Source of the DNA: Oceanipulchritudo coccoides
GTDB lineage: Bacteria; Verrucomicrobiota; Verrucomicrobiia; Opitutales; Oceanipulchritudinaceae
Direction of reading: 5' to 3'
NCBI RefSeq assembly: GCF_010500615.1
Contig: NZ_JAAGNX010000003.1
Coordinates: forward strand, 372,001 to 436,000
Length of the DNA stretch: 64,000 nucleotides
This document shows, piece by piece, positions 1-63,316 of the stretch. How positions within the stretch are numbered: position 1 is the first letter of the stretch; every line of letters starts with the position of its first letter. Position numbers and translations under genes: made by a program. The notes beneath the pieces are model-generated. The model was not told the origin of the DNA and searched no databases. It was given only the letters and a program-made list of their open reading frames with translations.

Positions 1-1
1 C

Positions 2-1114: not shown

Positions 1115-1134
1115 ATTGAGGTTTGTTACACCCC

Positions 1135-1162
1135 GCGGGTCCCGGTATGATCCGGGGCCCGC
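1135..1162 (+). terminator. strong GC-rich hairpin between receptor and GH94 gene
   Basis: An 11-bp stem (1135-1145 with 1152-1162, one G-U pair) encloses a 6-base loop. It lies 20 bases after the receptor stop and is not followed by a T tract, so it may be a 3'-end stabiliser or partial terminator rather than a classical intrinsic terminator. Its position argues against the longer GH94 start at 1123, which would place the hairpin inside the coding sequence. Confidence 0.5.
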
Positions 1163-1194
1163 GCCCTACTGAATCAAGTTTATCCCACTATTGT

Positions 1195-5102: not shown

Positions 5103-5122
5103 TTCCAACTGATTCACCAATT

Positions 5123-6706: not shown

Positions 6707-6737
6707 GGACTACTGCAACAGCTCCAGTCATGGATTA

Positions 6738-11309: not shown

Positions 11310-12713
11310 TCAGTCAAGGCTCCGCTGGAGCAGCTTCCATCCGTGTGATTCCGCATGCAAGGCGTCTGAAAGTTCCTTCACCACATCCTGATAATCCTTG
11401 TGCTTGGCAAAGTTTACTTTCCCAAGGGGATCAGCTTCAAAATCAAACAGGTCGCGACCCACTAAATTTGCTCCCTTGTTGCTGATCCACTCGATGTAGC
11501 GGTAGCGTTCGTTCCGCACGGAATATCCGAAGGCGCCTCGGCTCTTGTAAATCGATGTGCTGACTTCTCTCGGCTTGGCACTTTCATCCTCAAGACATGC
11601 AACCAGACTCACGCCTTGCAAGCGCTCTGGCAGCTCCAATCCTGCCAGATCGCACAATGTCGGGAATACATCCGTGAACTCCACTGGTGACACCGTCTTG
11701 ACCGGCTTCCCCACCCTCGGATCTACAATAATCAACGGCGCACGAACAGCTTCTTCAAACGGCGTGTGCTTTCCCCACAAGCCGTGGTCTCCCAAGTGGA
11801 ATCCATGGTCTCCCCACAAAACAACAATCGTGTTCTGGGCCTTGCCTGTGGCCTCCAATTCCTCCAGCAACTGTCCGACAAGTGTATCGATCCATGAGAT
11901 ACAGGCGAGGTACCCGTGAATCATTTGGCGCTGCACCGTATCGGGAATGTCCCCCTTGTCGGGAACCCCATCGTATCCACGAGTCTCCTTTGAATCCCAG
12001 TATCCATAGCCGGAATTATCCTGGGCTCGTTCCTGAAAGGAGGCCAGCTGGATAGTCTCGGGATCATACAAATCGAAAAAGCGCTGGGGCGCGACAAACG
12101 GCAGATGGGGTTTCTTGAAACCCACCGCCAGGAAAAAGGGCTCTTCCTGTTCGGCCATTTTCCGGAGCTTTTCAACGGCTCCCCTGAAAATTCTTCCGTC
12201 CGGGAACGCCTCGTCAGGAAGATCGTAGGCTTGGACCACTTCCCGGCTCTTCGGCATTGAAGGAACCGTGCTGGAGGGATTTTCATCATAGGGAAATGTC
12301 CATGAAATCTCGTCCCCCTGATTCCGGCTATCGACACAGCGCGGGTCAAAGATTTTCCCAACCCCGGCGGTCACATACCCGTTGTTTTTGAAATGCTGGG
12401 GAAGAGTCAGGACATCAGGATTCACATCCCGCATCTTTGTCTTGAGATTGAGGACTCCCGTTGTTTCCGGACGGAGCCCCGTCATGATACTCGCCCGCGA
12501 AGGCCCGCAAACAGGGAACTGGCAGGCCGCATTGAGGAAAACAACTCCTTGTTCTGATAGTTTGTCGATCCGGGGAGATTTCACCTGTTCATAGCCATAT
12601 GTTCCCAGCATTGGCTTCAGGTCATCAACAGCGATGAAGAGAACATTTGGCCGGTTCGCAAAAAGAGCTCCCGCCACCAGAAGGCCGGCCACAGATAGAA
12701 TTCGATTTTTCAT
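11310..12713 (-). CDS. secreted sulfatase, iduronate-2-sulfatase-like
   Basis: Sulfatase of 467 residues with a signal peptide (MKNRILSVAGLLVAGALFA). AVDDLKPMLGTYG, Cys69 in CGPSR, MTGLRPETTG, GFKKPHLPFVAP and LWGDHGFHLGDHGLWGKH are all intact. It is closest by eye to the sulfatases at 3633 and 20020. It lies 21 bases downstream of another - strand sulfatase, so the two probably form one unit transcribed away from the GH10 gene. It converges on the GH5 lipoprotein gene with 18 bases between stops. Confidence 0.9.
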   Translation of the reverse strand: MKNRILSVAGLLVAGALFANRPNVLFIAVDDLKPMLGTYGYEQVKSPRIDKLSEQGVVFLNAACQFPVCGPSRASIMTGLRPETTGVLNLKTKMRDVNPDVLTLPQHFKNNGYVTAGVGKIFDPRCVDSRNQGDEISWTFPYDENPSSTVPSMPKSREVVQAYDLPDEAFPDGRIFRGAVEKLRKMAEQEEPFFLAVGFKKPHLPFVAPQRFFDLYDPETIQLASFQERAQDNSGYGYWDSKETRGYDGVPDKGDIPDTVQRQMIHGYLACISWIDTLVGQLLEELEATGKAQNTIVVLWGDHGFHLGDHGLWGKHTPFEEAVRAPLIIVDPRVGKPVKTVSPVEFTDVFPTLCDLAGLELPERLQGVSLVACLEDESAKPREVSTSIYKSRGAFGYSVRNERYRYIEWISNKGANLVGRDLFDFEADPLGKVNFAKHKDYQDVVKELSDALHAESHGWKLLQRSLD

Positions 12714-12734
12714 CTTATCTGGAATTGGTTGGGA

Positions 12735-14147
12735 TCAGTAATCAAACTTCGTGGTCTGGTTCCGGTCCTTGACCTTCATTGCCGACTTCCACTCAAGCAG
12801 TTCCTTGTAGAGGGATTCCCGAATTGCGGGCAACGATTCAGCTAGATTCTCCGTCTCTGCCGGATCCTTGGATAGATCGTACAGTTCAATTTCCTTTTCA
12901 CTGAAAAACTCGAGGAGTTTGTAATTTCCCCTGCGGATCACCGCGGCGTTGCGGTCGCCCGTGCTGGTGAGACGGCCCTTGTCGGAGTACCAGAAAAAGG
13001 AGCGGTCTTCATTGAATCCGCACTCGCCCTTGATACCAGGGACAAAGCTCACCCCGTCCTCGTGCACGTCTGGCTGAAGTGGCAATTCCAGCATTTGCAG
13101 GATTGTCGGATAATAATCCATTCCCGTTATCGGAAAGGATGCTGTCTTGCCTTCCTCCGCGTGCCCGGGCCAACGCACGATGACCGGAACGCGGATACCG
13201 CCTTCATACATGTGGCCCTTCCCTGCTCGAAGCGGCAGGTTTGTCGTTGCCAGTTCCCGCTTGTTGTTGATCCCCGCGTTGGAAAGCCCGCCATGGTCAG
13301 AAGTCAGGATGATGATGGTCTCATCATAAATCCCCAGCTCCTTTAACCTTTCCACAATCCGGCCAAGGCTCTCATCCACACTTTCCACCATGGCAGCATA
13401 CCCGGCATTGTTTTGATGGCGAAGATGGCGCCCATCCTTGCCCATGTCGTATTCGGGGCCCTCATACTGGATTGTCTCCACCTTTTCTGAATAGCGCTCA
13501 GTCTTGTCCTGCTTCCCTTGAATGGGCGTATGGACGGCGTAATGCGAGAAGTAGACGAAAAAAGGTTCCTCCTGGTGTTCATCAATGAATTCCAGTGTCT
13601 TGTCCGTCAGCACATCCGTAAGATACTTTCCCTCATCGTTGTTCAGCACTTCGGGACCAGTCAGTCCCGGTTTATCACTCCCGTATGGTGGAAAATAGGA
13701 CCCCGGCGCTCCAGCAGATCCTCCAGCAATGTTCACATCAAAGCCCTGTGCCTCGGGAAACTCGTTCTTCTTCTTTCCTATGTGCCACTTGCCGGCAAAG
13801 AAAGTTGCATACCCATGAGCTTTAAGCGCCTCCGCAAGCGTTACCCGCTCAGGTTTCATCCGACCGGTATTCTCACCGTCACCTTCTGCACGGCTTGGAT
13901 GCACGCCGCTCATCATTGCAAAACGTGAGGGAACACAACGGGGAAAGGCGGAATAGGCCTGATCCAGCATTAGTCCATCTCCCGCAAGGGAATCAATACG
14001 GGGCGTCTCGTAGAACTCCGATCCGGTCAGCGAAAGATCATGATAGCCCATATCGTCGACTAGAAAGAAGACCACGTTCATTGCCTTCCCCGGAAGGAAA
14101 TTCATCGCCATGGCCAGAACAAGGAAGAGGAGAGTTTTTTTGATCAT
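12735..14147 (-). CDS. secreted sulfatase, arylsulfatase A type
   Basis: Sulfatase of 470 residues with a signal peptide (MIKKTLLFLVLAMAMNFLPG then KA). LVDDMGYHDLSLTG is the classical arylsulfatase A start, Cys71 in CVPSR is the formylglycine site, FFAGKWHIGKKKN carries the conserved Lys-His, and LTSDHGGLSNAG closes the metal site. It differs clearly from the iduronate-type sulfatases in the window, so it probably acts on a different sulfate position. It is first in a two-sulfatase - strand unit, divergent from the GH10 xylanase. Confidence 0.9.
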   Translation of the reverse strand: MIKKTLLFLVLAMAMNFLPGKAMNVVFFLVDDMGYHDLSLTGSEFYETPRIDSLAGDGLMLDQAYSAFPRCVPSRFAMMSGVHPSRAEGDGENTGRMKPERVTLAEALKAHGYATFFAGKWHIGKKKNEFPEAQGFDVNIAGGSAGAPGSYFPPYGSDKPGLTGPEVLNNDEGKYLTDVLTDKTLEFIDEHQEEPFFVYFSHYAVHTPIQGKQDKTERYSEKVETIQYEGPEYDMGKDGRHLRHQNNAGYAAMVESVDESLGRIVERLKELGIYDETIIILTSDHGGLSNAGINNKRELATTNLPLRAGKGHMYEGGIRVPVIVRWPGHAEEGKTASFPITGMDYYPTILQMLELPLQPDVHEDGVSFVPGIKGECGFNEDRSFFWYSDKGRLTSTGDRNAAVIRRGNYKLLEFFSEKEIELYDLSKDPAETENLAESLPAIRESLYKELLEWKSAMKVKDRNQTTKFDY

Positions 14148-14292
14148 TTCAATTGGGGTTTAGAGCGTAAATTCAGGCGATCGAACCGATTTCCAGCAAC
14201 CTATTACAACAGTGTGCACAATTCTTCAAGTTGCCATATTGAATGAGTCATGTCAAAAGAGACGGGATTAACCCCACGGAGCTATTCACACC
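14148..14292. promoter_or_regulatory. divergent intergenic region between sulfatase and GH10 genes
   Basis: These 145 bases must hold promoters for both the - strand sulfatase pair and the + strand xylanase. An 8-base palindrome TGTGCACA occurs at 14213-14220. I see no convincing -35/-10 pair by eye. Co-regulation from a shared control region is inferred from the divergent layout. Confidence 0.4.
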
Positions 14293-16119
14293 ATGAAATC
14301 CCTTATCCAAAATCCCAGAACACTGTGTATCCTGGCCCTGCTGGCCCCGTTATTGAGCCTGCGGGCAGGCTGGTATTCGTTTGACCGGTCGGGAAACCTG
14401 ACAGGTGAACCGGAGGCACAGGACCTTCTCATTTTACAACCCGTTCCGGATGGTGGCGAACCGTACGCGGTGGGTCCCGGCTATCAGCGTGAAATTGCGG
14501 TTGAGAAAGATACTGTTGCTTGGTCGCTGAAGTTTGAGGCGCGAGCAGCAGGCGGAAAACCGGGTGAGTATAATCACTCTCTTAAGCTCAATCTGTCCAC
14601 GGGCCCTAAAGCGCGCCCCTTTTTCTTGTGCGGGCCGATCTTGCATGGTGACTGGGAGAGCTATGAAGCCGTCATCCTTCGCAAGGAGGATAACGCCTCT
14701 AATGTTGTGTATTTGACGATTGGTTACGGATGGGGCAGCTCAGAAGTGGAGGTGCGTAATGTTGTCCTGACAAGTACTACAGAAAAGCCCGATCCGCAAA
14801 CAATTCGCAGACAAGGGCATTGGTACAAGGGGCAACAGGCGGATGCGCCATGGCGCGAGCGTGCACAGGAGATGATCGAGAAAAACCGCAAGGCCGCTGT
14901 GCAAGTGCGGGTTGTCGACCGGGAGGGCTTGCCTGTTGAAGGAGCCCGTGTTGTTTTGGAACAACAGACGCACGCATATCAGTTTGGAACAGCCGTTGCC
15001 ACACAGTTGTTCCGGTGGATGGAAGAGGGTCCCGCCGATCCTTCACGAGAGTCTTCCCTGCTCTCCGGAGATGCCCCCGGCAAAGCCAATAAGCGGGCCG
15101 AGGCAAGGGCCAACGCCAAACGTTACTTCGAGGAAATTGTCGTGAATTTCAACTACTTCGTGACCGAAAACGGACTGAAAGGACAAGCGTGGGCCGGTGA
15201 TTGGGCAGGCTTCCGAATTGAGGACACGTTTGCTTCGATTGACTGGCTCCTGTCCAAGGGACTTGAGGGGAAGGGACACGTCCTGGTCTGGCCAGGCTGG
15301 AGAAACGCTCCGGAATACATGAAAGCAGCTGCCGACAATCCTGCCGCGTTGGAGGCATTGGTGGAAGCCCACATTGCGGACATGGGAAGCTCAATGAACG
15401 GAAAGCTGGCTGCTTTTGATGTCTTGAACGAACCCTTTAACAACAACGACTTCATGAGGATTCTCGGGGATGAGGTGATGGCTGATTGGTTCAAGCAGGC
15501 AGAGCAATTCCTTCCGGAGGCTCGACTATGCCTCAATGATTTCCTCCTCTTTTCCAATGGTGGCCAGTGGACGGAAAAGCTCGATTTCTATGATGAGCTG
15601 ATTGCCAGCCTCCTGAAGGAGGGCGCGCCTTTGGATGTTGTGGGATTTCAAAACCACTACCGGCACAATTTTCTGACAGCGCCTGAGCGTATCTGGGAGC
15701 TCTGCGACCGCTTTGGGGAATACGGACTACCGCTTGAATGCAGCGAGTTTGATGTCATTATGGAAGACGAATTACTGCAAGCCGCCTACACCAGGGACTT
15801 CCTTACCGCCTGGTTTGCCCATCCATCCACACGCGCCTTCCTCTTCTGGGGATTCTGGGAATCCGCACACTGGTTGCCACAGGCGGCGCTGTTGACCAGT
15901 GACTGGCGGGAAAAACCCAACTATCACGCTTATCGAAACCTTGTCTTCAATGAATGGTGGACGGGTTGGGAGGAAGATTTCACCAACAAGGACGGTGCCT
16001 GTACCCAGCGGGGATTCCTCGGCAAGTACCGGATCACCGTCACCCATAACGGTGTTTCGAAGTCAATTGACAATCTGGAGCTCGCTAAAGGCGGTCTCGA
16101 ATTGGTCGTTCGCCTTTAG
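14293..16119 (+). CDS. GH10 endo-beta-1,4-xylanase with N-terminal domain
   Basis: Secreted enzyme of 608 residues. A signal peptide (about 1-25) precedes a beta-rich region (about 30-165) that looks like a carbohydrate-binding module, then a short linker strand region and the GH10 barrel (about 225-560). Family signs are FGTAV (231-235), NYFVTENGLKGQAW (287-300), GHVLVWPGW in place of the usual HTLVWH, the acid/base Glu380 in AFDVLNEP, and the probable nucleophile Glu485 in LECSEFDV. It should cut xylan internally outside the cytoplasm. It converges on a XylR-type regulator with 4 bases between stops, which supports a xylan role. The altered HTLVWH segment could change -1 or -2 subsite recognition. 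Confidence 0.9.
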   Translation: MKSLIQNPRTLCILALLAPLLSLRAGWYSFDRSGNLTGEPEAQDLLILQPVPDGGEPYAVGPGYQREIAVEKDTVAWSLKFEARAAGGKPGEYNHSLKLNLSTGPKARPFFLCGPILHGDWESYEAVILRKEDNASNVVYLTIGYGWGSSEVEVRNVVLTSTTEKPDPQTIRRQGHWYKGQQADAPWRERAQEMIEKNRKAAVQVRVVDREGLPVEGARVVLEQQTHAYQFGTAVATQLFRWMEEGPADPSRESSLLSGDAPGKANKRAEARANAKRYFEEIVVNFNYFVTENGLKGQAWAGDWAGFRIEDTFASIDWLLSKGLEGKGHVLVWPGWRNAPEYMKAAADNPAALEALVEAHIADMGSSMNGKLAAFDVLNEPFNNNDFMRILGDEVMADWFKQAEQFLPEARLCLNDFLLFSNGGQWTEKLDFYDELIASLLKEGAPLDVVGFQNHYRHNFLTAPERIWELCDRFGEYGLPLECSEFDVIMEDELLQAAYTRDFLTAWFAHPSTRAFLFWGFWESAHWLPQAALLTSDWREKPNYHAYRNLVFNEWWTGWEEDFTNKDGACTQRGFLGKYRITVTHNGVSKSIDNLELAKGGLELVVRL

Positions 16120-20019: not shown

Positions 20020-22542
20020 ATGCAACTGAAGCTTGTCCCCATATCCCTGCTAACTCTCTGTTCTCTAACGAACGCACACCTTGCCGCAGAGGACCAACCC
20101 AACGTCCTGTTCATCGCGATCGACGACCTGGTGACGACAATCGGCCCCTACGATGATCCCCATGCCATCACGCCTGCCATGGATTCCCTGGCAAGCCAAG
20201 GCACAACATTCCGGAATCACCATTGCCAATGGCCCGTTTGCGGACCTTCCCGGGCAGCCCTGACAACCGGACTGCTCCCCGAAGAGACAGGCGTGATGGG
20301 ATTCAGACCGATCCGGGCAATTCTGCCGGATGTCATCACGCTGCCCCAGCACTTTCGCAACAACGGATACGAAACCGCCGCTACCGGGAAATTCCACGAT
20401 CCAAGAACCGTCGGCAATATTGTCGACCCCAACAGCCAGACCACAGACGGGCGCAACATTGACGATCCCGCTTCATGGTCCATCCCTTATGTTCGGGCTG
20501 ACGCCGGGTATTCTCCATCGGGTAAACCAGCTGTGGATGACTCCCTGGCCGATGAAACCCAACATGGCGACTATAAGATTCTCGATGAGGGCAAAGCGCT
20601 TCTCGATATTCTTGAAGGAGGCACCAAGCCGTTCTTTCTTGCTGTTGGATTCAAAAAACCGCACCTCCCGTTCATCGCACCGGCGGCCGATTGGGCCCTT
20701 TATGACCGCAACCAGTTCAGCCCGGCCCCATTACAGGATTTGCCCTTCAACAGCAGTAGTTATGTGGATGCGACCCTCGGGGATAATGACGAGCTTTTGG
20801 GATATGAACCCTACGATGTGACAGGACTTCCCACGGATGAACAACAGAAGGAATTAATTCATGGGTATTATGCCTGTGTTTCCTTCATAGATTCGCTTGT
20901 CGGAAATCTCCTCGCTCATTTGGCAACAAAATCCGACCCGCTGGATCCGGCTAAGAACATGTCGGAGACAACCATCATCGTCCTTTGGGGCGACCACGGA
21001 TTTCATCTTGGAGACCATGGAAAATGGGCCAAGCACACAGTGATGGAACGCGCCACCGCCGCTCCACTGATTATATATGATCCCCGCAACCCAGCCGGTG
21101 GTGTAATGAATTTTCATCCCGCCAACTCGATTGATATTTATCCGACCCTCGTTGAATTGGCCAACCTCCCGATTCCAGAACAACCGCTCAACGATACCAT
21201 CACCACGGGACGTCCCTTGCGCGGAAGCAGCCTGGCCTCAATGTTGCACGATTCCGATGCCGCTGTGAACAGTGGTGCCATTACCTATATTTCACGCAAT
21301 GGCGGTTATGGTTATTCCTATCGTAGTGACCGGTATCGCTACATAGAATGGGTAGACTCTTCAAATGTTGTTCAGGCAAGGGAGCTATATGATTACAAGA
21401 TGGATCCCTTTGAGACGAGGAACGTCATTGATGATCCTGCCAATGCAGCAATTGCTTATCAGCTTTCCCGTTCCATGCGGGCCGAAACAAGCTCAAGAGG
21501 GGCCGACAGGATGCAAGGATCTGCTCCTATCCCGGCAAGCGGGGCGGAAATCACACTGGGGAACGGCTATCTGCCGGGTGTCAAAATCGAGGCCTCCTCA
21601 GCCAGCGGATCACCCATGGTGACCTTGGATTGGCCGGGAGCGACTGGTGTCTCCTACGACATCATGAGCAGCACGACACTTGCCCCTTCCAGCTGGAGCG
21701 CCTCGCCTGATGGAATCTCAGGAGATCAAATCGTTGTTCCCCTGAATGGAACACGCCGGTTTTTCCAGATCGCAATCGGCTCAAACACCCCACCCTTGTT
21801 CAACAGGAATGCCATTACAGCTGATGACGCTGAGGTTGACGCCTCTTACAGTTTTGAGCTGTCAGCATTTGTTGAGGATCCGGATGTTGGTGACTCTCTC
21901 ACATTCAGCAAAGTATCCGGCCCCATTTGGCTCACCGTCGCACCAAGCGGAACAATCTCCGGCAACCCTCTCACGGGTGATCTTGGGGTGCATTACGCCA
22001 AGGTCGAAGTGGCAGACGCGAGTGGTGCGATTGACCTTGCCGAGGTATGTCTATCCGTTGTTCCTGCCGGGCCTGCAACGCAAACCGACACATTTTATGC
22101 AACCGACGACACCTTCGCCAAGCTAAGTAATACGACGCTTATCCCAGGCGGGCAGGCTGTCTTGGAAGTGCGTCAGGACGGAGCCAGTATTTTCACCCGG
22201 ATCACTTATCTTAAATTTTCTGTCTCCGGTATTGGCACGGTTCAGGAAGTGCGGCTGTATCTGCATTCCAATACAGAGACAGATCCTGTCAATGTACACC
22301 TTGTTACCGACACGTCATGGAGCGAAGGCTCATTGAATTGGGACAACCGTCCTCCATATTCGACGCTTGTCGGCTCGGGCATCCCGACAGCAGGAGCATG
22401 GTTATCAATTGACATCACTCCCGCTATTTCGAGCGACGGAACTTACTCATTCGCTCTCGACGAACAAGGAAACTCACTCGGAAAATTCGACAGCAGCGAA
22501 GCCGGATTCACTCCCTATATTGAAATTGTATCAATCCCTTGA
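20020..22542 (+). CDS. secreted sulfatase with Ig-like and CBM96/DNRLRE-like tail
   Basis: Protein of 840 residues, far longer than a plain sulfatase. A signal peptide (about 1-22) precedes an iduronate-2-sulfatase-like domain (about 25-490) with Cys74 in CGPSR, GFKKPHLPFIAP and LWGDHGFHLGDHGKWAKH. Residues about 525-588 form a small beta module with the pattern Y-D-I-M-S-S-T then RFFQIAI. Residues about 595-680 resemble a putative Ig/cadherin-like domain (SLTFSKVSGPIWLTVAPSGT, then ISGNP). Residues about 690-840 resemble the DNRLRE/CBM96 carbohydrate-binding family (YLKFSVSG, TSWSEGSLNWDNRPP). The tail should hold the sulfatase on polysaccharide. The GH5 gene follows after 16 bases. Confidence 0.88.
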   Translation: MQLKLVPISLLTLCSLTNAHLAAEDQPNVLFIAIDDLVTTIGPYDDPHAITPAMDSLASQGTTFRNHHCQWPVCGPSRAALTTGLLPEETGVMGFRPIRAILPDVITLPQHFRNNGYETAATGKFHDPRTVGNIVDPNSQTTDGRNIDDPASWSIPYVRADAGYSPSGKPAVDDSLADETQHGDYKILDEGKALLDILEGGTKPFFLAVGFKKPHLPFIAPAADWALYDRNQFSPAPLQDLPFNSSSYVDATLGDNDELLGYEPYDVTGLPTDEQQKELIHGYYACVSFIDSLVGNLLAHLATKSDPLDPAKNMSETTIIVLWGDHGFHLGDHGKWAKHTVMERATAAPLIIYDPRNPAGGVMNFHPANSIDIYPTLVELANLPIPEQPLNDTITTGRPLRGSSLASMLHDSDAAVNSGAITYISRNGGYGYSYRSDRYRYIEWVDSSNVVQARELYDYKMDPFETRNVIDDPANAAIAYQLSRSMRAETSSRGADRMQGSAPIPASGAEITLGNGYLPGVKIEASSASGSPMVTLDWPGATGVSYDIMSSTTLAPSSWSASPDGISGDQIVVPLNGTRRFFQIAIGSNTPPLFNRNAITADDAEVDASYSFELSAFVEDPDVGDSLTFSKVSGPIWLTVAPSGTISGNPLTGDLGVHYAKVEVADASGAIDLAEVCLSVVPAGPATQTDTFYATDDTFAKLSNTTLIPGGQAVLEVRQDGASIFTRITYLKFSVSGIGTVQEVRLYLHSNTETDPVNVHLVTDTSWSEGSLNWDNRPPYSTLVGSGIPTAGAWLSIDITPAISSDGTYSFALDEQGNSLGKFDSSEAGFTPYIEIVSIP

Positions 22543-22558
22543 GGTCTTACCTAAATAT

Positions 22559-24982
22559 ATGAAAATTCACTACACAATCTCCCTAGCTTCCCTTTTCTTC
22601 GCTGTTTCGCTTTCCGCGCAGGATACCGTCGTCCTCCATAACTGGCAATTCAATGATCCGGCAAGCACTCCCGTCTTTGACGGCGCCCTAAACACCGGCC
22701 AGGAAGCTGGTGCTGATTCTGAGGACTGGCTCGGCACATCCACCGACGGGGCCGGCAACTGGCATGTCACGGGCACGACCGGCAACAAATTCGGGGGATA
22801 CTGGCTTCAATCCACGCAGCTCCCGTACCAAGCGGATCAGGTCATTGTTGAGTGGGCTTACTCGTCCTGGGATTGGGGCTCGGCGACCCTCAGTCCGAAT
22901 ATCGGATTCGGCCTTCTAACGCCTGTTTCCGGGGAAAACGGATCCGCGACGATTTTGAGAAATGGAACCAGTCTGCGCGTACGGGATTCAATCAGCACAG
23001 ATGTTATTAATTTCCAGAGTAACACGATTGACAGTTCGGCAATCCCCTCCCCCCGGGTTCCCCTCGACCAGAGTACTGGACTTGAAATCCCCGGGGCCCC
23101 CGCCCTCGCAGCAGGAGACAGCTTGAAATTTCGTTACACAGTCGATTTCTCCGGCACAACGGCAACATACACAATCGACTATGGAATAAATAGTGGGGCC
23201 TACTTCACCATCTTCACCGGGACCTGGCCGTGGGGCCAAGTTGATGCCGTCCGCATCCAAGCAGCCAATGCTGAAGTGAGCAACAGCATCAAAGTCGATT
23301 ACTTGAAGGCAAGTGCTGTTAGTGCTCCCTCCACTGGCGGAAGTGGATCAACCGATTTTTCTGCTAGTATCCAGCGTCGCGCTCTGGGAATAAATCAGTT
23401 TCTGATCACCTGGCCTTCCAGGACGGGCATGACATATTCAGTACAATCCAGCTCAGACCTGTCCGGATTCGGAGACCAGTCAACGGGCTTACAGGCGACT
23501 CCTCCATTAAACGAGTGGTGGGTCGACTTTGATCCAAGCGGTGGGCCATGGTTTTACCGGGTTGGCCAGATTGAACCACCTGCCACAGGAGCAAGAGCCG
23601 CCGCACAGGCATTGAACAAGCGCTTGTTCCGTGGAAACAACTTCATGGCGTCGAAGTCCATGAATGACCAGGGGGCCGAGGAGGATTACGCCCTATTAAA
23701 TGCCTCCCATTTTAATCACTGCCGTATCGGCTACAAGATGGACGAAGTGGCCGGGCCCGCTCCGGGCCACCTCATTCCCGCCAGCGAAATGAACGTCCTT
23801 CAGAAGATGGTCGACTGGTGCCTTGATGAAGGCCTCATTGCTATTGTTGATCCGGTTCATAATTGGGCCAACAACAACGACCCTGCCCAGGAATACAATG
23901 ACACCCCAGAAGACCGCCTGAAGCTCCAGCGTATCTGGGAACAGGTGGCCGCCCATTTCGCCGGCTATGACCTCGATAAGGTCGTCTTCGAGATCATGAA
24001 TGAACCGCACGGTGAGGATAATGTCGCGACGATAATCAATATTGGACTCACTGCCATTCGCGGAGTCGCCGGCAACGAGGAACGCATTGTCATTGTCTCC
24101 GGCGACGGCTTCTCAACGCGCCAGGCCCTCATCGATGCGTTGGATAATGACGAAATCCCCAGCAATGACAATTACCTGATCGGCACTTTCCATTATTACG
24201 ATCCAAGGCCCTTTACCAAACAGCTTAATGAGGACATAAGCTGGGGAACCCCAGCCGAATTTTCGACAACGCCATCTGACTTTGATGAAGTCGTTGCGGC
24301 AAATGAAGCCTGGGCCACGCGAAATGCGACCGATCCCCTGCCCCTCTACCTCGGGGAATTCGGGGTCAATAATGATGCCGACAACTGGAACGAAGATCGC
24401 GAACGCTGGCTCAGCTGGATTCGGATGCAGGCGGAAGCCCGGGATATTTCATGGGCTCACTGGAACATGTACAATAATTCCGATTCCTCAAAGGGCATGG
24501 GGCCGTGGACTAGTAGCGAACAAAATAATCCATCCCTGCGGACATTTGATGCGGCCCCACTTGAGGCGCTGGTCGGACGGTACGAATTTGAAGACGGCTC
24601 TACCGGAGGCGGTGTTGTCAGTTCAGACCTTCTTCCGGGATTTACCGGCAGCGGTTATGCCGCCTACCCGGAAACCACCGGTTTGGGAACCTGGGCCAGG
24701 GTTGACGGAATCTATATCCCCACAACGGGAAGCTACGTCGTGAATATTCACTACGCCTCAGCAATTGAAAGAACTGTCCGTCTGGTCTCAAGTGCTCAAA
24801 CCTTGACCAACGTCGTCTTTCCCTCAACCGGAAGTAACGACAGCTGGGCAACGCTTCAGGTTGAAATCAATTTCAGCGGGAGCACCAGTGCGGATATCGG
24901 AAATGAAAGCCTGAAGGTTGTCGCAGATCCCGATGTTGGACCAAACCTCGATTGGCTCCACGTAACGGCGCCTAGTCCATAG
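22559..24982 (+). CDS. multidomain secreted GH5 glycoside hydrolase
   Basis: Protein of 807 residues. The ATG at 22559 is chosen because it starts a clear signal peptide (MKIHYTISLASLFFAVSLSA); the longer frame from 22367 overlaps the sulfatase. Residues about 22-250 form a module nearly duplicated in the protein at 25437. Residues about 276-338 form a small beta module ending WFYRV. The GH5 barrel (about 350-660) has NHCRIGYKM, Glu482 in FEIMNEPHGEDN, GTFHYYDP and nucleophile Glu600 in YLGEFGV. Residues about 680-807 look like a CBM6/35 domain starting YEFEDGS. It probably acts on a beta-glucan or mannan outside the cell. Confidence 0.87.
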   Translation: MKIHYTISLASLFFAVSLSAQDTVVLHNWQFNDPASTPVFDGALNTGQEAGADSEDWLGTSTDGAGNWHVTGTTGNKFGGYWLQSTQLPYQADQVIVEWAYSSWDWGSATLSPNIGFGLLTPVSGENGSATILRNGTSLRVRDSISTDVINFQSNTIDSSAIPSPRVPLDQSTGLEIPGAPALAAGDSLKFRYTVDFSGTTATYTIDYGINSGAYFTIFTGTWPWGQVDAVRIQAANAEVSNSIKVDYLKASAVSAPSTGGSGSTDFSASIQRRALGINQFLITWPSRTGMTYSVQSSSDLSGFGDQSTGLQATPPLNEWWVDFDPSGGPWFYRVGQIEPPATGARAAAQALNKRLFRGNNFMASKSMNDQGAEEDYALLNASHFNHCRIGYKMDEVAGPAPGHLIPASEMNVLQKMVDWCLDEGLIAIVDPVHNWANNNDPAQEYNDTPEDRLKLQRIWEQVAAHFAGYDLDKVVFEIMNEPHGEDNVATIINIGLTAIRGVAGNEERIVIVSGDGFSTRQALIDALDNDEIPSNDNYLIGTFHYYDPRPFTKQLNEDISWGTPAEFSTTPSDFDEVVAANEAWATRNATDPLPLYLGEFGVNNDADNWNEDRERWLSWIRMQAEARDISWAHWNMYNNSDSSKGMGPWTSSEQNNPSLRTFDAAPLEALVGRYEFEDGSTGGGVVSSDLLPGFTGSGYAAYPETTGLGTWARVDGIYIPTTGSYVVNIHYASAIERTVRLVSSAQTLTNVVFPSTGSNDSWATLQVEINFSGSTSADIGNESLKVVADPDVGPNLDWLHVTAPSP

Positions 24983-25068
24983 AATACACTTTCTCATTGG
25001 TTTAAGGCAAACAATCACCGAGATAACACATTGAAAACTGTCTCATTCGCCCAATCGTATAAACAATC

Positions 25069-25401
25069 ATGAAAAAATACCCTATCAAAATCACAGTAAT
25101 CACACTCCTTGGCAGCCTCTTTGCCTTGAGCATCGCCTCAGCCGAATACAGCTGGGCCAATAAGAAATGGGGCGAGCTGTCCGACGTCGAAAAGAAGGCA
25201 AAGGTCTTCTTGAAATGGGATACCGACGGTGACAGCCAGCTGAATAAGGCAGAGTACACCGAAATGACCCGGGTCCAATTCGAGAAAAACGGCAAGGAAG
25301 GTTACCAAAAAGCTGCCGAAAAGCGTTTTCAAAACAAGGATACCAATGAAGACGGATTTGTTTCCTTTGAAGAGCAGAACAATATGAAACTGCCCGAATA
25401 A
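25069..25401 (+). CDS. secreted EF-hand calcium-binding protein
   Basis: Protein of 110 residues with a signal peptide (about 1-24, ending SIASAEY). Two EF-hand loops are visible: DTDGDSQLNKAEY (about 51-63) and DTNEDGFVSFEE (about 91-102), each with acidic residues at the calcium positions. It should bind two calcium ions in the periplasm or outside the cell. It lies between the GH5 gene and the gene carrying a copy of the GH5 N-terminal module, which suggests a structural or calcium-dependent role with these secreted proteins. Dockerins also use paired calcium loops, but the spacing and sequence here look like ordinary EF-hands. Confidence 0.8.
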   Translation: MKKYPIKITVITLLGSLFALSIASAEYSWANKKWGELSDVEKKAKVFLKWDTDGDSQLNKAEYTEMTRVQFEKNGKEGYQKAAEKRFQNKDTNEDGFVSFEEQNNMKLPE

Positions 25402-25436
25402 TTGATTGTTAGTTTATCCCTTAAACCCTCGTTCAA

Positions 25437-26507
25437 ATGAAAACTCCACTACTGAAAAATCTCCCCTTCACTGTTATTGCTGCATCCTTTGCAGTAACGG
25501 CATTTGCCCAGGAAACCGTCGTCATCCACGACTGGCAATTCAACGACGCAGCCGGCACCGCCGTTTTCAATGATGCCTTGAACACAGGCGTCCAAGCCGG
25601 TGCCGACACCGAGAACTGGCTCGAAACAACCACCGACGGCGAAGGCAACTGGCATGTCACCGGTACAAGTGAAAACCGCTTCTCTGGCTACTGGCTGCAC
25701 GAAAGCCAGCAACCTGTTTCCGCTGACAAATTGATCCTTGAATGGGCCTACAGTTCATGGGACTGGAGTGCTGTAACCCAGAATCCCAATATCGGATTCG
25801 GTTTCTACTCTCCCGGTGACGGCACAAACGGATCTGTCACAATTCTCAGAAACGGGACCAGCATCCGCACACGGGATTCAATCAGCAAAGACGTTGTGAA
25901 CTTTCTCAGCAACACCATCAGTAGTGCGGACATCCCTGAGCCCCGGGTGCCGATCGATCAGGCAACCAAAATCGAATTCGAGGGTGCTCCAGCCCTTGGT
26001 GCTGGAGACAGCCTTAAGTTCCGCTACACGGTCGATTTCACAGCCGAGCCCGATACCTACATCATCGACTATGGTGTCAACGAAAGCGAATACTACACGA
26101 TCTACACGGGCGAATGGCCATACGGCGATATTGATCAAATTCGCATGCAGGCGGCTAACCCTGAGGTGGGTAACAGCGTTAAAATCGATTACATGGTCGT
26201 AACCGGCGAGAATGTCGTTTTCCCGGAGCTGGCAAGCTCCCCATGGGCGGATGTGTATCCATTGATTGGCGACATCGTACGCGACACCGGGATCGGTTGG
26301 ATCGATGATTCCCAGTACCCGTATGTCTACCACTTCAATGCGGACACCTGGCTGTATATCGATTCGGACAGCGCAACATTGGAATCCATCTACGGCTACA
26401 ACTTTGCCTATGGTTTCTGGTTCTGGACAGCCGACGATATCGATGGCTGGCACTTTAACCTGGAAGATCCCGAATACGGCCAAAGCGGCTGGGCACCTTG
26501 GTACTAG
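25437..26507 (+). CDS. secreted protein: stand-alone copy of the GH5 N-terminal module
   Basis: Protein of 356 residues with a signal peptide (about 1-24, ending TAFAQE). Residues about 24-258 match residues 22-250 of the GH5 protein at 22559; a hand count over the first 68 aligned positions gives 45 identities. Features include WQFND, GNWHVTGT, EWAYSSWDW, ILRNGTS and GAGDSLKFRYTVDF. There is no catalytic domain. Residues about 261-356 form an aromatic-rich end (YPYVYHFNADTWLYID, YGFWFW, GWAPWY) shared with the proteins at 60891 and 62450. It is probably a surface or extracellular carbohydrate-binding protein; the ligand is unknown. Confidence 0.75.
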   Translation: MKTPLLKNLPFTVIAASFAVTAFAQETVVIHDWQFNDAAGTAVFNDALNTGVQAGADTENWLETTTDGEGNWHVTGTSENRFSGYWLHESQQPVSADKLILEWAYSSWDWSAVTQNPNIGFGFYSPGDGTNGSVTILRNGTSIRTRDSISKDVVNFLSNTISSADIPEPRVPIDQATKIEFEGAPALGAGDSLKFRYTVDFTAEPDTYIIDYGVNESEYYTIYTGEWPYGDIDQIRMQAANPEVGNSVKIDYMVVTGENVVFPELASSPWADVYPLIGDIVRDTGIGWIDDSQYPYVYHFNADTWLYIDSDSATLESIYGYNFAYGFWFWTADDIDGWHFNLEDPEYGQSGWAPWY

Positions 26508-26673: not shown

Positions 26674-29565
26674 ATGCCCATCCCACCGAGGCCAGGCCGC
26701 CTTAAATGGCCTACATTGGCCATCATTCTGGTCATCATCGCATCAGCCATACCATTGGTAGGGCAGCGCATCATGGTGAGGGCGGTTGACCAACTCAGCG
26801 GCACGGGAATCGCCAATGCGGAATTGGTTTTTCCAGGGGCCGGGTTGCGCGGACGGAGCGATGCCAGCGGCTGGATCCAGATCGACACACAGCTGGAAGG
26901 CATTTTTGAATCGATTTTGACTGCCGACGGTTACGGCAGCCGCCGCTTCCGGCTCGAAATTGCCGCAGACAAGCCTTCCTTTCGTCAGGAACTCTTTCTC
27001 AACCCACTCATTGTGAACCTGGCAGCCTTCGAGGTAGAAGGGAGCCTGACGGATGCCGACCGGGACGCACTGGCAAAGCGTGAAAGCGTTGCCCCAGTGG
27101 ACCAGTTGTCCGGAGAGGCTTTGCAGGATGTGACCGACAATGGGCTCGAAGACACCCTTGAAAAAGTCTCCGGGGTCACTGTTGAGACCGACGGCGAATC
27201 CGTATCCGGAGTCAATATCCGTGGTGCGGGCCCAAGACAGACGCGCATTACTGTCGACGGGCAAAGTGTCGCGGGAGGCGGCGGTCGGGGAACGACCCGG
27301 GGGATTCGCGCCATGAGCCAGATTCCACGAGAGTTCATCAACAACATCCAAGTGATGAAAGCGCCGACACCGGACATGGATGCCGATGCCATCGGCGGCA
27401 CTGTCGACTTGCAGACAAGCCGCGTGGCATCCTCGAAAAAGGCGAGAAGCTCAATCTCCATGTGGAATGGATGGCAGGAGGAACCGGGAAAATGGGGCCA
27501 CAGGATCAACCTCGCCCATGCAGAGCCCATCGAGTTAGGCGAAAGCGGCTCACGTCTGGGCATACTCCTCGCAGTGAATGGCCAGAAAAACGAGAACGCC
27601 CCTGACATGCTCCGCGTCCAAAACCAATGGCCTGAACGGATCAGCCCGGAAACAGGTGAACCCGTGCAAACCCTTGCCCGCCTGCGCATGGGGACACGCG
27701 AAATCACCAACCGGGGTTACGGAGTCGTCTTGAATACGGATCTGCAGCTCAATCAGAACAACCACTTCTATCTGAAAGGCATGTGGAATGAGAGGCAAAC
27801 CGACCTCTCGGTTGAGTTTCATACACCGCAATTCATCCAGGGAAAAATAATCTCCCTTCTTCCAGATTATGGGGAATTTGAAAATTTCCGGCTCGAGAAG
27901 CAGTTCCTTGAAAACTCGCCCGAGGATAATTCGGGAAGCATTGTCTTCGGGGCGGAACATCTCCTGGGGGATTGGAAAGTTGACGAGAGTATTGGCTACT
28001 CCTTTGCCAAATCCGAATCAAAGGGCTCCGTGAATGGCGTCTTCTTGACAGCCAATGAGTACGATGGCTCCTACGACCTTTCCGTTAATCCATTTCGCCC
28101 GCAAATCCGCATCCTGAAAGACGGGGCCGAATCAAGCATTACCGACCTGTTGGACCCCACCCCTTTCAATTTCCAGCGTTATGACATTATTGACAACCTG
28201 GCAGATGATTCCGAACTCGCGCTTCGCTTGAATCTGACCCGCAAGGTGGAAAAGGATTCGTCCGAGTGGACCTACAAAACCGGTTTGAAGGCGAGAATTC
28301 GCGACGCCGAAAATGATCAGGACAAGGTGAAGTACTTTCCCGTTGACGAGGCCTTTTCTTTGGATGAGATCGCCGCACCGGGTCAGAAAAGTATCTTCCG
28401 AAGCCGCTACCCGCTTGGGCCATCCTGGTCGGCCGGGGCCATGCGAGATCGCTTCTTGAACGATCCGGATGCGTTTCGGTCCGATCCTCTGGAAACACTC
28501 TTTGATTCGGCGGCCGGGGATTTCACCGTCTCGGAATCCATTTATGCCGCCTACGGGATGATCCAGCGGGAAAGCGATCGGTGGGTCATAATCGCCGGGC
28601 TGCGGCTTGAACGAACGGATTCCAAGACACAGGGATTTCAAACAATTTCTGAGATTGACGAAAACAATGAGCGGATTGTTGAGGTGAATCCAGTGTCCAT
28701 TTCGGACCAATATAACATGCTCCTTCCCGGGTTTCACGCCCTGTTCAAGCCCACTCCAAACTGGGTTATCCGGGGCTCCCTGACACGCACCCTGCAACGT
28801 CCGGATTTCCGCGACCAAAGCCCCTCAGCACGCGTTGATCTGGACAGGAAGCGTATCCGTGCAGGAAACCCTGAACTCGATCCCTTCGATGCCAAGGCCA
28901 TCGATCTGGGAACGGATTTCTTTTCAGACAAATGGGGCTCCATGTCGTTCGCACTCTTCTACAAGCGGATCGATGACTTTATCGTCGATACCGAACAGGA
29001 GACCGAGTATCTGGGCGAACCCGGCTTTATCCTTTCCCAATCGGTTAACGGCTCCCCCGCGGATTTGTATGGTCTCGAAGCATCCTATGCGACCCGGCTC
29101 ACCTTTCTTCCAGATCCCTTCGCAGAGACTGAATTCGTCGCAATGTACGTCCTCACGGACAGCACCGCCGCCTATCCCAATTATCCCGGGGAAAACATCA
29201 TGCTGCCCAAGCAGGTTGAACAAACAATCAACATGACCTTGCGTTGGCGTTTCCAGAACTGGACCCTTGCCTACCGGGCACGCTACCGCGGTGAACAGCT
29301 CAACAATTTGATCCGGCCAGGCCAGGACCAGTTCAATGAGGCTTTCTGGACACATGCCATCAACCTGAACTACAAGATCAACAACACGGTAAACCTCTCA
29401 ATCGGCCTGGCCAATCTCAACAAGCCGGACCGGTCAAGTTACCAGGGATCCACCCAGCGCATGGTAGGGAATTTCGAGGGATCCCGCTCAATCAACATCG
29501 GCCTGAACATCAAGCTTGGATCCAGTCTTTTGGACAGAATCCTCAACCGGCACTCCGTCAATTAG
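26674..29565 (+). CDS. TonB-dependent receptor with N-terminal carboxypeptidase-regulatory-like domain
   Basis: Outer-membrane receptor of 963 residues. A signal or anchor segment (about 12-30) is followed by a carboxypeptidase-regulatory-like beta domain (about 32-110), then NLAAFEVEG, the F-E-V motif of verrucomicrobial receptors. The plug domain has LEKVSGVTVETDGESVSGVN, IRGAGPRQTRITVDG and DAIGGTVDLQTSR; the rest is a large barrel with ELDPFDAKAIDLG and YRARYRGEQLN. It ends in Asn rather than Phe. It probably imports oligosaccharides released by the neighbouring enzymes. The DUF1800 and DUF1501 genes follow, a common verrucomicrobial and planctomycete order. Confidence 0.92.
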   Translation: MPIPPRPGRLKWPTLAIILVIIASAIPLVGQRIMVRAVDQLSGTGIANAELVFPGAGLRGRSDASGWIQIDTQLEGIFESILTADGYGSRRFRLEIAADKPSFRQELFLNPLIVNLAAFEVEGSLTDADRDALAKRESVAPVDQLSGEALQDVTDNGLEDTLEKVSGVTVETDGESVSGVNIRGAGPRQTRITVDGQSVAGGGGRGTTRGIRAMSQIPREFINNIQVMKAPTPDMDADAIGGTVDLQTSRVASSKKARSSISMWNGWQEEPGKWGHRINLAHAEPIELGESGSRLGILLAVNGQKNENAPDMLRVQNQWPERISPETGEPVQTLARLRMGTREITNRGYGVVLNTDLQLNQNNHFYLKGMWNERQTDLSVEFHTPQFIQGKIISLLPDYGEFENFRLEKQFLENSPEDNSGSIVFGAEHLLGDWKVDESIGYSFAKSESKGSVNGVFLTANEYDGSYDLSVNPFRPQIRILKDGAESSITDLLDPTPFNFQRYDIIDNLADDSELALRLNLTRKVEKDSSEWTYKTGLKARIRDAENDQDKVKYFPVDEAFSLDEIAAPGQKSIFRSRYPLGPSWSAGAMRDRFLNDPDAFRSDPLETLFDSAAGDFTVSESIYAAYGMIQRESDRWVIIAGLRLERTDSKTQGFQTISEIDENNERIVEVNPVSISDQYNMLLPGFHALFKPTPNWVIRGSLTRTLQRPDFRDQSPSARVDLDRKRIRAGNPELDPFDAKAIDLGTDFFSDKWGSMSFALFYKRIDDFIVDTEQETEYLGEPGFILSQSVNGSPADLYGLEASYATRLTFLPDPFAETEFVAMYVLTDSTAAYPNYPGENIMLPKQVEQTINMTLRWRFQNWTLAYRARYRGEQLNNLIRPGQDQFNEAFWTHAINLNYKINNTVNLSIGLANLNKPDRSSYQGSTQRMVGNFEGSRSINIGLNIKLGSSLLDRILNRHSVN

Positions 29566-57829: not shown

Positions 57830-58158
57830 AATTTTGCGGGTTTGCTGGTTAGGAGGTGATTTCGGGTGTATACTAGCTATTATGACCAGGATGCCGACTG
57901 AGGAAAGCCAAATGCATAATTATGCAAGCGAAAATATCAACCCCCACCCGGACTTAAGGAAGCTCTCGCCTGCAAAAAAATACCCAACGGGCAAAAGCAG
58001 GCACGGCAATTTAACCAAATGCAGTGAGTCCAATTTTGTAAAATTGCATTATTGTGCATTATTGGCTTGAACTCCCATAACGCCTCATGCAAAAACCACT
58101 GTTCTGTTATTTCGTAGCACTAAAATCCCCTTCAAAAGTAACCCTAATCAATAAAAAC
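57830..58158. promoter_or_regulatory. divergent control region between GH30 and carbohydrate-binding gene
   Basis: This 329-base gap holds no gene I can support. It contains a perfect 14-base palindrome TGCATAATTATGCA at 57913-57926, an inverted repeat CAATTTT-GT-AAAATTG at 58031-58046, and two head-to-tail copies of TGCATTATTG at 58045-58064. These are operator-like and probably bind the regulator that controls both divergent genes. No regulator gene lies next to them. Confidence 0.5.
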
Positions 58159-60890: not shown

Positions 60891-62405
60891 ATGACTAAAT
60901 ATTCCGCCCTACTCTCTATCGTAACAGTCGCATTTGCCGCGGCAAACCTCTCAGCCAACGCCCCAGAAGGCTACGTTCTCGAATGGTCCGACGAATTTGA
61001 TTATGTTGGAGCTCCAAACCCCGAATTCTGGACTCATGAGGTCGGAGCAGGCGGATGGGGAAACAACGAAGTGCAGGTGTATACCGATTCCCTTGATAAT
61101 TCTCGTGTAGAGAACGGGAATTTGGTCATTGAGGTGCACCAAGTGGATGGAGGCAGAGTCCCAGGCTATACTTCAGCACGCTTGATCACCCGCGAGAAGG
61201 CGCAATGGAAGTATGGGCGGATGGAAATCCGAGCCAAGCTACCGAGCGAAACAGGCACCTGGCCTGCCATCTGGATGCTTGGAGCCGACCGCCTCTACGG
61301 AAACGGAGGATGGCCAGACAACGGTGAAATCGATATCATGGAGCACGTTGGCTACGAAGAAGACCCACTGTACCTCGACTTGGTCGGCAACCCGGAGGTT
61401 CCCAACATACACGGAACCGCCCACTTGGGAAGAACCTCCTTTATCAGGAGTGATGGGGGTGTAGGAAGCAATGGTGATGGCGACAGCACTTATCTCTCTG
61501 ATGCCAGCACCGAATTTCACACCTATGCCATCAATTGGACGGAAGACCTGATTGAATGGGAAGTCGATGGCATCAAATACTTTTCCCTGGAGCTTCCGAC
61601 TTTTCGTGTTCCTCCACCACAACCCCTGTATTACTATTGGCCTTTTGACCAAAGATTCTTCATGATTCTGAATGTTGCTGTTGGCGGAAGATGGGGCGGA
61701 AATTTTAGTACCGGCAGCTTTCCGAGCTCTCCCTATGGACGTGGAATCGATGATAATGGCGTTTGGCCGCAACGCATGGAAGTAGATTACGTCAGAGTTT
61801 ACAAAAAAGATGAGCCGCCGGAAGCGACCCCTGTCCCCGGCCGGATCCTGGCGACGGATCTCGACCACAGTGACGGCATCCTGATCGTCCAATCCGGAGT
61901 GCCGGAACTCCCACACAATCTGGTTAACATTGATCCGGATGATTCTGCAGAATTCGCCATCACGGTCCCTCAAGCAGGCGCCTACATGGTTCATGCCACA
62001 GTCGCCACTCCCAATAACAGCAGGCTCCTCTCTCTCAGCGTTCCTGACTCAGGAGATTCTACACCCGCAATCGAGCTTCCCAACACTGGAAGCTATGATA
62101 CTTGGCAGTCAGTCGAATTGGGCGAAATAAACTTGATGGAAGGCCTCAATACGTTAACTATGACTACATCAACTGGTGGGTTCACCATTGCTGCGTTTGA
62201 TGTCAGTGAAGGTGAGGGATCGGTCTGGAAAGGTCTAAACATAGATGCATTTGGAAACGCTCAAACAAACTCATGGCTGGGGCAGATCAATATCAATGCA
62301 GCGCCATGGATTTATTCCTACCAGTTCGAAGACTACATCTTCATGCCGGTCGCTCTGGAAGACACCTTTAGCGCTGACAACCAGTGGATCTTCATTCCTC
62401 GCTAA
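60891..62405 (+). CDS. GH16 beta-glucanase (laminarinase type) with CBM6-like and C-terminal modules
   Basis: Secreted enzyme of 504 residues with a signal peptide (about 1-22). The GH16 domain (about 26-310) shows WSDEFDY, WGNNEVQVYTD, YTSARLIT, KYGRMEIRAKLP and the catalytic GEIDIMEHVG with Glu146 nucleophile, Asp148 and Glu151 acid/base. This is the endo-beta-1,3-glucanase/laminarinase form. Residues about 319-438 look like a CBM6-like beta sandwich. Residues about 444-504 carry the W-L-G and PWIYSY-type C-terminal module shared with two other proteins. The upstream terminator implies its own promoter. Confidence 0.92.
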   Translation: MTKYSALLSIVTVAFAAANLSANAPEGYVLEWSDEFDYVGAPNPEFWTHEVGAGGWGNNEVQVYTDSLDNSRVENGNLVIEVHQVDGGRVPGYTSARLITREKAQWKYGRMEIRAKLPSETGTWPAIWMLGADRLYGNGGWPDNGEIDIMEHVGYEEDPLYLDLVGNPEVPNIHGTAHLGRTSFIRSDGGVGSNGDGDSTYLSDASTEFHTYAINWTEDLIEWEVDGIKYFSLELPTFRVPPPQPLYYYWPFDQRFFMILNVAVGGRWGGNFSTGSFPSSPYGRGIDDNGVWPQRMEVDYVRVYKKDEPPEATPVPGRILATDLDHSDGILIVQSGVPELPHNLVNIDPDDSAEFAITVPQAGAYMVHATVATPNNSRLLSLSVPDSGDSTPAIELPNTGSYDTWQSVELGEINLMEGLNTLTMTTSTGGFTIAAFDVSEGEGSVWKGLNIDAFGNAQTNSWLGQININAAPWIYSYQFEDYIFMPVALEDTFSADNQWIFIPR

Positions 62406-62449
62406 TTTCCAACCCACAAAAAACCTCTAAAAACAAACCTATACTCATT

Positions 62450-63316
62450 ATGAACAAAAAAATAACCGTAGCAACCGCCCTGGCCCTCCTGACGGGTTCC
62501 ATGGCCTTTTCAAATACCCCGTTGATTGAAAACCCGGATTTCTCCGCTGGTTACAAGGATTCTTGGATCCTCGGTGCCAACATCTTCCCGGGCGGAGTTT
62601 GGGCAGCCTTCTTGACTGCTGATAACACCGACCAAATCAATCCATTCCTCTGGAGTAATCAAGTTGTCCCGGGTGGCTCGGGTGTCACCATTAATTCATG
62701 GGATGACGGTGCCTCCGACCGGATCGAACAATATCTTTTCAATGAGCATACCGCCGCCTCGCCAAATGGTGATCCAGCCTTCCTCCGGGTTCTGTTCAAA
62801 CCTGGCGACGTCATCCGCTTTACAGGTTCGGCAAGGGCGACACGTGTCGGCGCTGACACAAGTGATATGCTGATCCGTGCCTTCATCAAGACATTGGGAT
62901 ATAACCCGGATGCATTCGGGATTATTCCGCAGTATACTGTATTTCACAATATTGGATCCGCATTGGAACCGTTCGACCTGACTATCACCTACCCGGATGA
63001 TGTGACAGCCGAGCCCTTTCAGGTTATCCAACTGGGCTTCGAAATCACTAATGAATTTGATGGGAATTCCTTCACCATGGATTCAGGAACGATCTACTTC
63101 GAAAACCTTTCAGGTTACATCGAAGGCGATGCATCTGTGACTTGGGCTGGGTACGATGTCGATGAGAACGGCTTCGCCGATACAGGCGCATGGATGGGCA
63201 TCGTTAATGTTACTTCGGATCCATGGATTTATGTCTATGACCTCGGGAAGTACATCTACATTCCAGCCGAGGCTGTCTCTGAATCAGGAGCGTGGATTTA
63301 CGCCCTTGACCAGTAA
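62450..63316 (+). CDS. small secreted protein with beta-sandwich and shared C-terminal module
   Basis: Protein of 288 residues. The ATG at 62450 is chosen for its signal peptide (MNKKITVATALALLTGSMAF). Residues about 25-225 look like a CBM-type beta sandwich (PLIENPDFSAGYKDSW, FTMDSGTIYFENLSGYIEGD). Residues about 227-288 carry the shared C-terminal module (WMGIVNVTSDPWIYVYDLGK). No catalytic residues are seen. It follows the GH16 gene by 44 bases and is probably co-expressed, acting as an extracellular glycan-binding protein. A perfect terminator follows. Confidence 0.7.
   Translation: MNKKITVATALALLTGSMAFSNTPLIENPDFSAGYKDSWILGANIFPGGVWAAFLTADNTDQINPFLWSNQVVPGGSGVTINSWDDGASDRIEQYLFNEHTAASPNGDPAFLRVLFKPGDVIRFTGSARATRVGADTSDMLIRAFIKTLGYNPDAFGIIPQYTVFHNIGSALEPFDLTITYPDDVTAEPFQVIQLGFEITNEFDGNSFTMDSGTIYFENLSGYIEGDASVTWAGYDVDENGFADTGAWMGIVNVTSDPWIYVYDLGKYIYIPAEAVSESGAWIYALDQ

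Follow-up and report, generated by a model that had tools for sequence, protein, structure and literature searches.

The window analysed here is a stretch of 64,000 nucleotides (nt) from Oceanipulchritudo coccoides (contig NZ_JAAGNX010000003.1 of assembly GCF_010500615.1, positions 372,001-436,000, forward strand). It encodes a protein of glycoside hydrolase family 5 (GH5) and, close downstream on the same strand, a smaller stand-alone protein. The two share a module near their N-termini, which we call modA, and the stand-alone protein ends in a second, aromatic-rich module, modB. The features concerned are as follows, in window positions.

22559..24982, + strand, GH5 protein of 807 residues: signal peptide, modA, linker region, GH5 domain and CBM35-type domain
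22616..23308, + strand, modA copy 1
23657..24481, + strand, GH5 catalytic domain PF00150 (Pfam), whose closest solved sequence relative is endoglucanase H
24677..24958, + strand, CBM35_2-type domain PF18099 (Pfam), barely above the cut-off
25437..26507, + strand, stand-alone protein of 356 residues: signal peptide, modA and modB
25506..26195, + strand, modA copy 2, predicted concanavalin-like sandwich
26235..26504, + strand, modB in its long form, aromatic-rich, at the C-terminus of the stand-alone protein

The modA pair

A preliminary description of this DNA had claimed that about 235 residues are common to the two proteins at roughly two-thirds identity, and this holds: residues 20-250 of the GH5 protein align with residues 24-253 of the stand-alone protein at 149 of 229 identical positions (65%), signal peptides (assigned by eye in both proteins) excluded and boundaries falling inside 22613-26205. 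A local alignment that takes in part of the signal peptide gives 156/243 identities and scores 876, whereas none of 200 shuffled comparisons exceeds 75. It is equally correct that one copy sits on a catalyst and the other on an aromatic C-terminal module. The GH5 domain matches PF00150 with an E-value of 5.4e-37 (residues 367-641), and modB proved to be a real module. The most plausible start of the GH5 protein is the ATG at 22559, with the stop at 24982, and its CBM35-type domain (residues 707-800) scores 24.7 bits against a cut-off of 23. By sequence, the closest solved relative of the GH5 domain is endoglucanase H (E 5.4e-24), with whose motifs E482 (in NEP) and E600 (in GEF) align; we take these to be the two catalytic glutamates.

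Over 692 nt, the two modA copies are 68% identical at the DNA level. Identical residues are spread rather evenly over the module, with 13-19 per 25-residue block and 2/4 at the end, and the Nei-Gojobori count gives a nonsynonymous divergence (dN) of 0.26 and a synonymous divergence (dS) of about 1.95. By these substitution counts the pair is an old duplication under purifying selection, and a recent duplication or gene conversion is not supported given that dS is near saturation. The two copies are each other's nearest relatives among the sequences found, at 65% identity versus 17-22% overall for the others aligned, in which only short local stretches reach up to 40%. No other close relative of the pair emerged from a single-sequence search of the class, in which 3/384 genomes matched, this genome included. 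A profile built from the two copies matched 4/387 genomes of the phylum, again counting this one, some of them weakly (E 0.003-0.005); two of the weak matches, at loci L007 and L008, do not resemble modA. A contig scan with two peptide patterns returned 1 locus, in a search that may leave out records near the window's own. No match to the stand-alone protein was found on plasmids and none to modA or modB on viral contigs, and the search for close relatives of the pair drew no match from its three congeners, which are drafts of 84-96% completeness. Within the searches made, a pair at 65% identity is thus private to this genome as judged from sequence.

The same two-row profile revealed a third copy in this genome, at contig positions 363132-363995, about 8 kb before the window and between two sulfatases. 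Its architecture, modA-modB, is that of the stand-alone protein; being only 22% identical, it is not supported as the parent of the pair.

modA as a family with a predicted lectin-type fold

The modA of neither window protein matches Pfam (E <= 1), NCBIfam or PHROGs, the last two having been searched with these two proteins only. When nine diverse modA copies were compared with Pfam at E <= 10, the only matches were DUF6711 (E 0.19) and DPC4_C (E 0.27), each for a single copy, which we take as chance, as we do the best sequence match in the PDB (E 0.45). None of the nine copies, nor the window pair, is matched by a LamG, lectin or Pfam carbohydrate-binding module (CBM) profile. An AlphaFold2 model of residues 24-261 of the stand-alone protein is a strand-only sandwich. 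The top Foldseek hits of this model are L-type lectins (Emp46p, ERGIC-53; best E 2.6e-7). VIA, whose list for the full stand-alone protein covers the same residues and leaves room for families not on it, aligns it with LMAN1 (3lcp_A) at a Z of 12.4 and a root-mean-square deviation (rmsd) of 3.8 over 198 residues, and with a GH43 C-terminal domain at a Z of 12.3; by the tool's own gauge, a Z of 7-8 is typical for models that have no clear match. The concanavalin-like lectin/glucanase fold is therefore the most likely one for modA on the predicted model, and modA is, to go by its profile searches, a new sequence family of a known fold kind. The preliminary description had called the module undescribed and had asked for profile searches and structure prediction, with a match to an existing CBM or LamG-type family of known function as the outcome that would count against it. 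No family matched in the libraries searched, and the module stands as undescribed at that level; in predicted fold it belongs to the wider LamG/L-type-lectin kind.

A profile of nine modA copies found the module in at least 14/384 genomes of the class, this genome included, with up to 7 candidates scored per genome. The search for other fusions, also proposed in the preliminary description, was productive: elsewhere modA is joined to sulfatases, to GH10 and to a relative of poly(Asp) hydrolase. Ten of 20 listed modA open reading frames (ORFs) were scanned with Pfam, and 4 carry a sulfatase, 2 a GH10 domain and 4 no enzyme domain. Two of the sulfatases, at L083 and L085, have the order sulfatase-He_PIG-modA, and the sulfatase upstream of the GH5 gene in the window has the order sulfatase-He_PIG-CBM96. 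The richest locus is L095, from an Opitutales metagenome-assembled genome (JAFIGG010000002.1; identical to G696, which belongs to a different genus of the family), where positions 1-7659 hold, within 7.7 kb, a cut protein ending in modB, a modA protein with a PEP-CTERM-like end, the modA-hydrolase (its relation to poly(Asp) hydrolase at E 2.4e-67) and a modA-modA-modB protein, with two other genes between. At L010, by eye, tandem modA is followed by a stretch that resembles GH18. At L012:1093-4145 two modA proteins lie side by side; their modules are nearly identical by eye, and one of the two has a PEP-CTERM-like end. The same locus holds a 1291-residue frame (12052-15924) with a sulfatase in its last ~490 residues and ~800 residues ahead of it that match no Pfam family at E <= 1e-4.

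Besides these fusions, modA also occurs free of any enzyme, followed by a C-terminal tail. Checked locus by locus, free modA is followed by modB in 5 proteins of 4 genomes (the window, L011, L095, L162 and L044) and by a PEP-CTERM-like end, recognized by a simple sequence pattern and no family model, in 8 proteins of 7 genomes. This bears on the order of events proposed in the preliminary description, in which modA arose on the enzyme and was duplicated, one copy then being separated from its catalyst. In favour of this order, the copies sit near each other on a single strand and are the nearest relatives found. However, free modA with a tag recurs in other genomes, and elsewhere in this genome as well, with no GH5 partner, whereas a single GH5 fusion was observed: a search of 17 family genomes at E <= 1e-10 turned up no second GH5 carrying modA, and the best remaining GH5 is 36% identical and lies in a frame of 387 residues. 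We consider the enzyme-first order improbable, and the claim of a separation is not upheld. By parsimony, the GH5-modA fusion would be the derived form, as read from an unrooted pair for which no outgroup close enough was found.

We read modA as glycan-binding because a lectin-type fold is predicted for it and because it is fused to sulfatases, GH10, GH5 and a hydrolase. It could alternatively bind no sugar and serve as a structural or protein-protein module, a spacer or matrix component, with modB or the catalytic domains doing the work. Four tandem modA copies in a protein that has no Pfam enzyme domain (L090:552-4292), and four again in L092 (1099 residues), would suit such a role, as would the presence of modA in small PEP-CTERM-like proteins and its few invariant residues; a shared fold, moreover, proves no function. 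What argues against it is that modA is fused to sulfatases, GH10 and GH5 and twice occupies the position of a CBM96, and we rate a non-binding modA as a possibility of lesser weight.

modB, a mostly C-terminal module

The modB of the stand-alone protein is matched 9 times in this genome (E <= 10), in 8 proteins and always at the protein end. The module comes in a short form of ~57 residues and a long form of ~88 (range about 57-90), whose profiles are related (hhalign probability 94, E 1.1e-7, 39 columns). This genome holds at least 33 matches to the short profile (33/63 candidates scored) and at least 26 to the long one (27/94 scored); the two sets may overlap, and with up to 33 and 27 candidates scored per genome the counts are lower bounds. 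Across Opitutales, short modB is present in at least 23/196 genomes and long modB in at least 58/196. Within the family each form is found in 16/17 genomes, the exception being a genome that is 80% complete.

The module lies within 25 residues of the C-terminus in 37/39 distinct ORFs (9 profile seeds included) and within 15 residues in 62/69. The two sets share proteins and both include seeds; open ORFs and ORFs with the same end were dropped, which in the 69-ORF count meant removing 2 ORFs open at the 3' end and those with identical last 60 residues. Its partners are diverse and comprise GH88, GH16-CBM6, a pectate-lyase-like protein, a multicopper oxidase, an esterase-like hydrolase, fn3, LTD, modA itself and, by eye, an RCC1-like protein. 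When 20 of the 39 ORFs were scanned, many of them cut by the end of the locus, 10 matched no Pfam family at E <= 0.001. Further modB sites are L012:7040-8062, L011 and L095:7384-7656. In the window, two neighbouring proteins, a GH16-CBM6 protein (60891-62405) and the next one (62384-63316), both end in the short form:

62217..62402, + strand, short-form modB, C-terminus of the GH16-CBM6 protein
63110..63313, + strand, short-form modB, C-terminus of the next protein

Such paired neighbours recur in other genomes of the family (L099, L103, L104 and L106).

Searches for known relatives of modB returned little. Among 9 members compared with Pfam the only match was Hira (E 1, in 1/9), and among 16 compared with NCBIfam the only one was PRK13405 (E 0.052, in 1/16), which we take as chance; PHROGs was searched with the stand-alone protein only. 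The best PDB match of the first modB profile (E 0.56) is likewise taken as chance, and the long profile finds no PDB entry at E values up to 1. For the short profile there is a weak match (E 0.0013) in LytB, to its choline-binding repeats (7pl2, 7pl5). On these searches modB is an undescribed family, and it is a broader and less expected feature than the modA pair.

The resemblance to choline-binding repeats, whose own ligand is part of the cell wall, raises the alternative that modB is a CBM and no surface tag, which would make the stand-alone protein a two-headed glycan-binding protein. That modB is aromatic-rich and accompanies several carbohydrate-active enzymes (CAZymes) fits this idea. 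Against it, modB sits mostly at the very C-terminus, occurs on oxidase, LTD, fn3 and RCC1-like (by eye) proteins and not on CAZymes alone, and is repeated at least 33 times in short and at least 26 times in long form in one genome. We regard a sugar-binding modB as the less likely reading. We favour reading it as a tag because it is mostly C-terminal, has unlike partners and alternates with PEP-CTERM-like tails on free modA proteins (5 versus 8), in a genome with 3 exosortase matches; the weak LytB match, to repeats that serve in anchoring, points the same way.

Gene neighbourhood, proposed working and known systems

The genes around the modA pair lie on one strand with short gaps (86 nt between the GH5 and EF-hand genes, 35 nt from there to the stand-alone gene and 166 nt on to the receptor gene):

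20020..22542, + strand, sulfatase-He_PIG-CBM96 protein, directly upstream of the GH5 gene (Pfam)
25069..25401, + strand, small EF-hand protein, between the GH5 and stand-alone genes (Pfam)
26674..29565, + strand, TonB-dependent receptor TIGR01782, directly downstream of the stand-alone gene (NCBIfam)

Two GH94 genes, a further GH5, a GH10, another five sulfatases and regulators of the LacI and AraC types are encoded in the first 18 kb of the window, and we read the left part of the window as a polysaccharide utilisation locus. GH16 and GH30 genes are situated 30 kb further right, past unrelated genes, and their membership of the locus is not required. An 841-residue protein with no Pfam match at E <= 1e-4 is encoded at 58087-60612, upstream of the GH16 gene. 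The substrate is likely a beta-glucan-like, perhaps sulfated glycan, to judge from the GH94, GH5, GH10 and sulfatase genes nearby; endoglucanase H being the closest solved relative of the GH5 domain, a beta-glucan-like substrate would be expected.

We propose that modA, as a concanavalin-like (LamG/L-type-lectin-like) accessory module, binds the polysaccharide that the gene cluster degrades, and that modB, a lineage-specific aromatic C-terminal module, retains secreted proteins at the cell surface. The GH5-borne modA would bring an endoglucanase-type catalyst to the glycan, whereas the free modA would capture glycan beside the TonB-dependent receptor encoded directly downstream, with modB taking the place of the PEP-CTERM-like tail found on other modA proteins. 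Homology, gene order, fusions and the mostly C-terminal position of modB are observed; the modA fold is predicted, and to the joint reading of glycan binding, surface retention and substrate that we infer from them we give about even credence.

Several observations weigh against it. The modA model is of moderate quality, drawing on 7 sequences (from the window and L095) with a predicted local distance difference test (pLDDT) of 36-82 by ten-residue blocks, and its Foldseek template modelling (TM) scores are 0.26-0.38 by query and ~0.5 by target, with rmsd of 7-10 (TM ~0.34/0.49 for the best match). Across nine diverse copies only G28, G47 and W85 are invariant, which points to no ligand site; the concanavalin-like fold also serves enzymes, and modA may be non-binding. 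The structure model of modB is poor and matches no fold (best PDB match E 2.6). Its position is non-terminal in 7/69 and 2/39 ORFs, and at L068 and L073 it lies inside longer proteins with ~210-240 residues after it, preceded by BACON domains in L068. A further 35 modA entries have neither modB nor a PEP-CTERM-like tail, and 8 run off the 3' end, in a set that includes overlapping fragments of one gene, possibly counted twice. Finally, since modB is absent from the GH5 protein, the two proteins of the pair would be located differently.

A more far-reaching idea, which we hold tentatively, is that Opitutales have an undescribed route of surface retention or export, beside exosortase/PEP-CTERM, with modB as its C-terminal signal. 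Such a route would serve dozens of secreted cargo proteins per cell, many of them polysaccharide-degrading, and the stand-alone modA protein would be one cargo, a glycan trap for its TonB receptor. This genome region is rich in sulfatases and glycosidases. As a family of small C-terminal modules common to dozens of proteins, found in 16/17 sampled family genomes, modB would offer a testable handle on how such enzymes are retained at the cell, and for annotation modA is a further, uncatalogued module family of these enzymes. Literature searches, limited to open-licence PMC papers, showed nothing evidently about either module, which does not establish their absence from print.

Among known systems, modA is closest to the concanavalin-like proteins: L-type lectins (ERGIC-53/LMAN1, Emp46p/47p), GH43 C-terminal domains, the sialic-acid-binding domain of sialidase and LamG all share the two-sheet beta sandwich predicted for its ~230 residues, with VIA Z of 10.9-12.4 over 171-204 residues among the matches listed, which include accessory domains of CAZymes. 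In sequence, however, it is only 4-13% identical to them. CBM96 of the window sulfatase and CBM35 of the GH5 protein are, like modA, accessory modules in the same gene cluster; in L083 and L085 the position behind He_PIG is filled by modA instead of CBM96, and yet the three are distinct sequence families. As a candidate SusD/SGBP-type partner, the stand-alone protein is encoded next to a TonB receptor gene and has no Pfam family at E <= 1.

For modB, the LytB repeats of pneumococcus are anchoring repeats that bind choline on Gram-positive walls, and the short form is like them in its Trp/Tyr spacing, although the long form and the Pfam repeat models remain unmatched and the profile match is weak. 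The exosortase system, of which this genome has 3 matches above the cut-off, offers the other comparison. The end of the stand-alone protein (...GQSGWAPWY) shows by eye no PEP motif, membrane helix or arginine cluster, and it has no NCBIfam match. In contrast to PEP-CTERM tails, modB is aromatic and ~57-90 residues long; like them, it would be a C-terminal tag on otherwise unlike secreted proteins.

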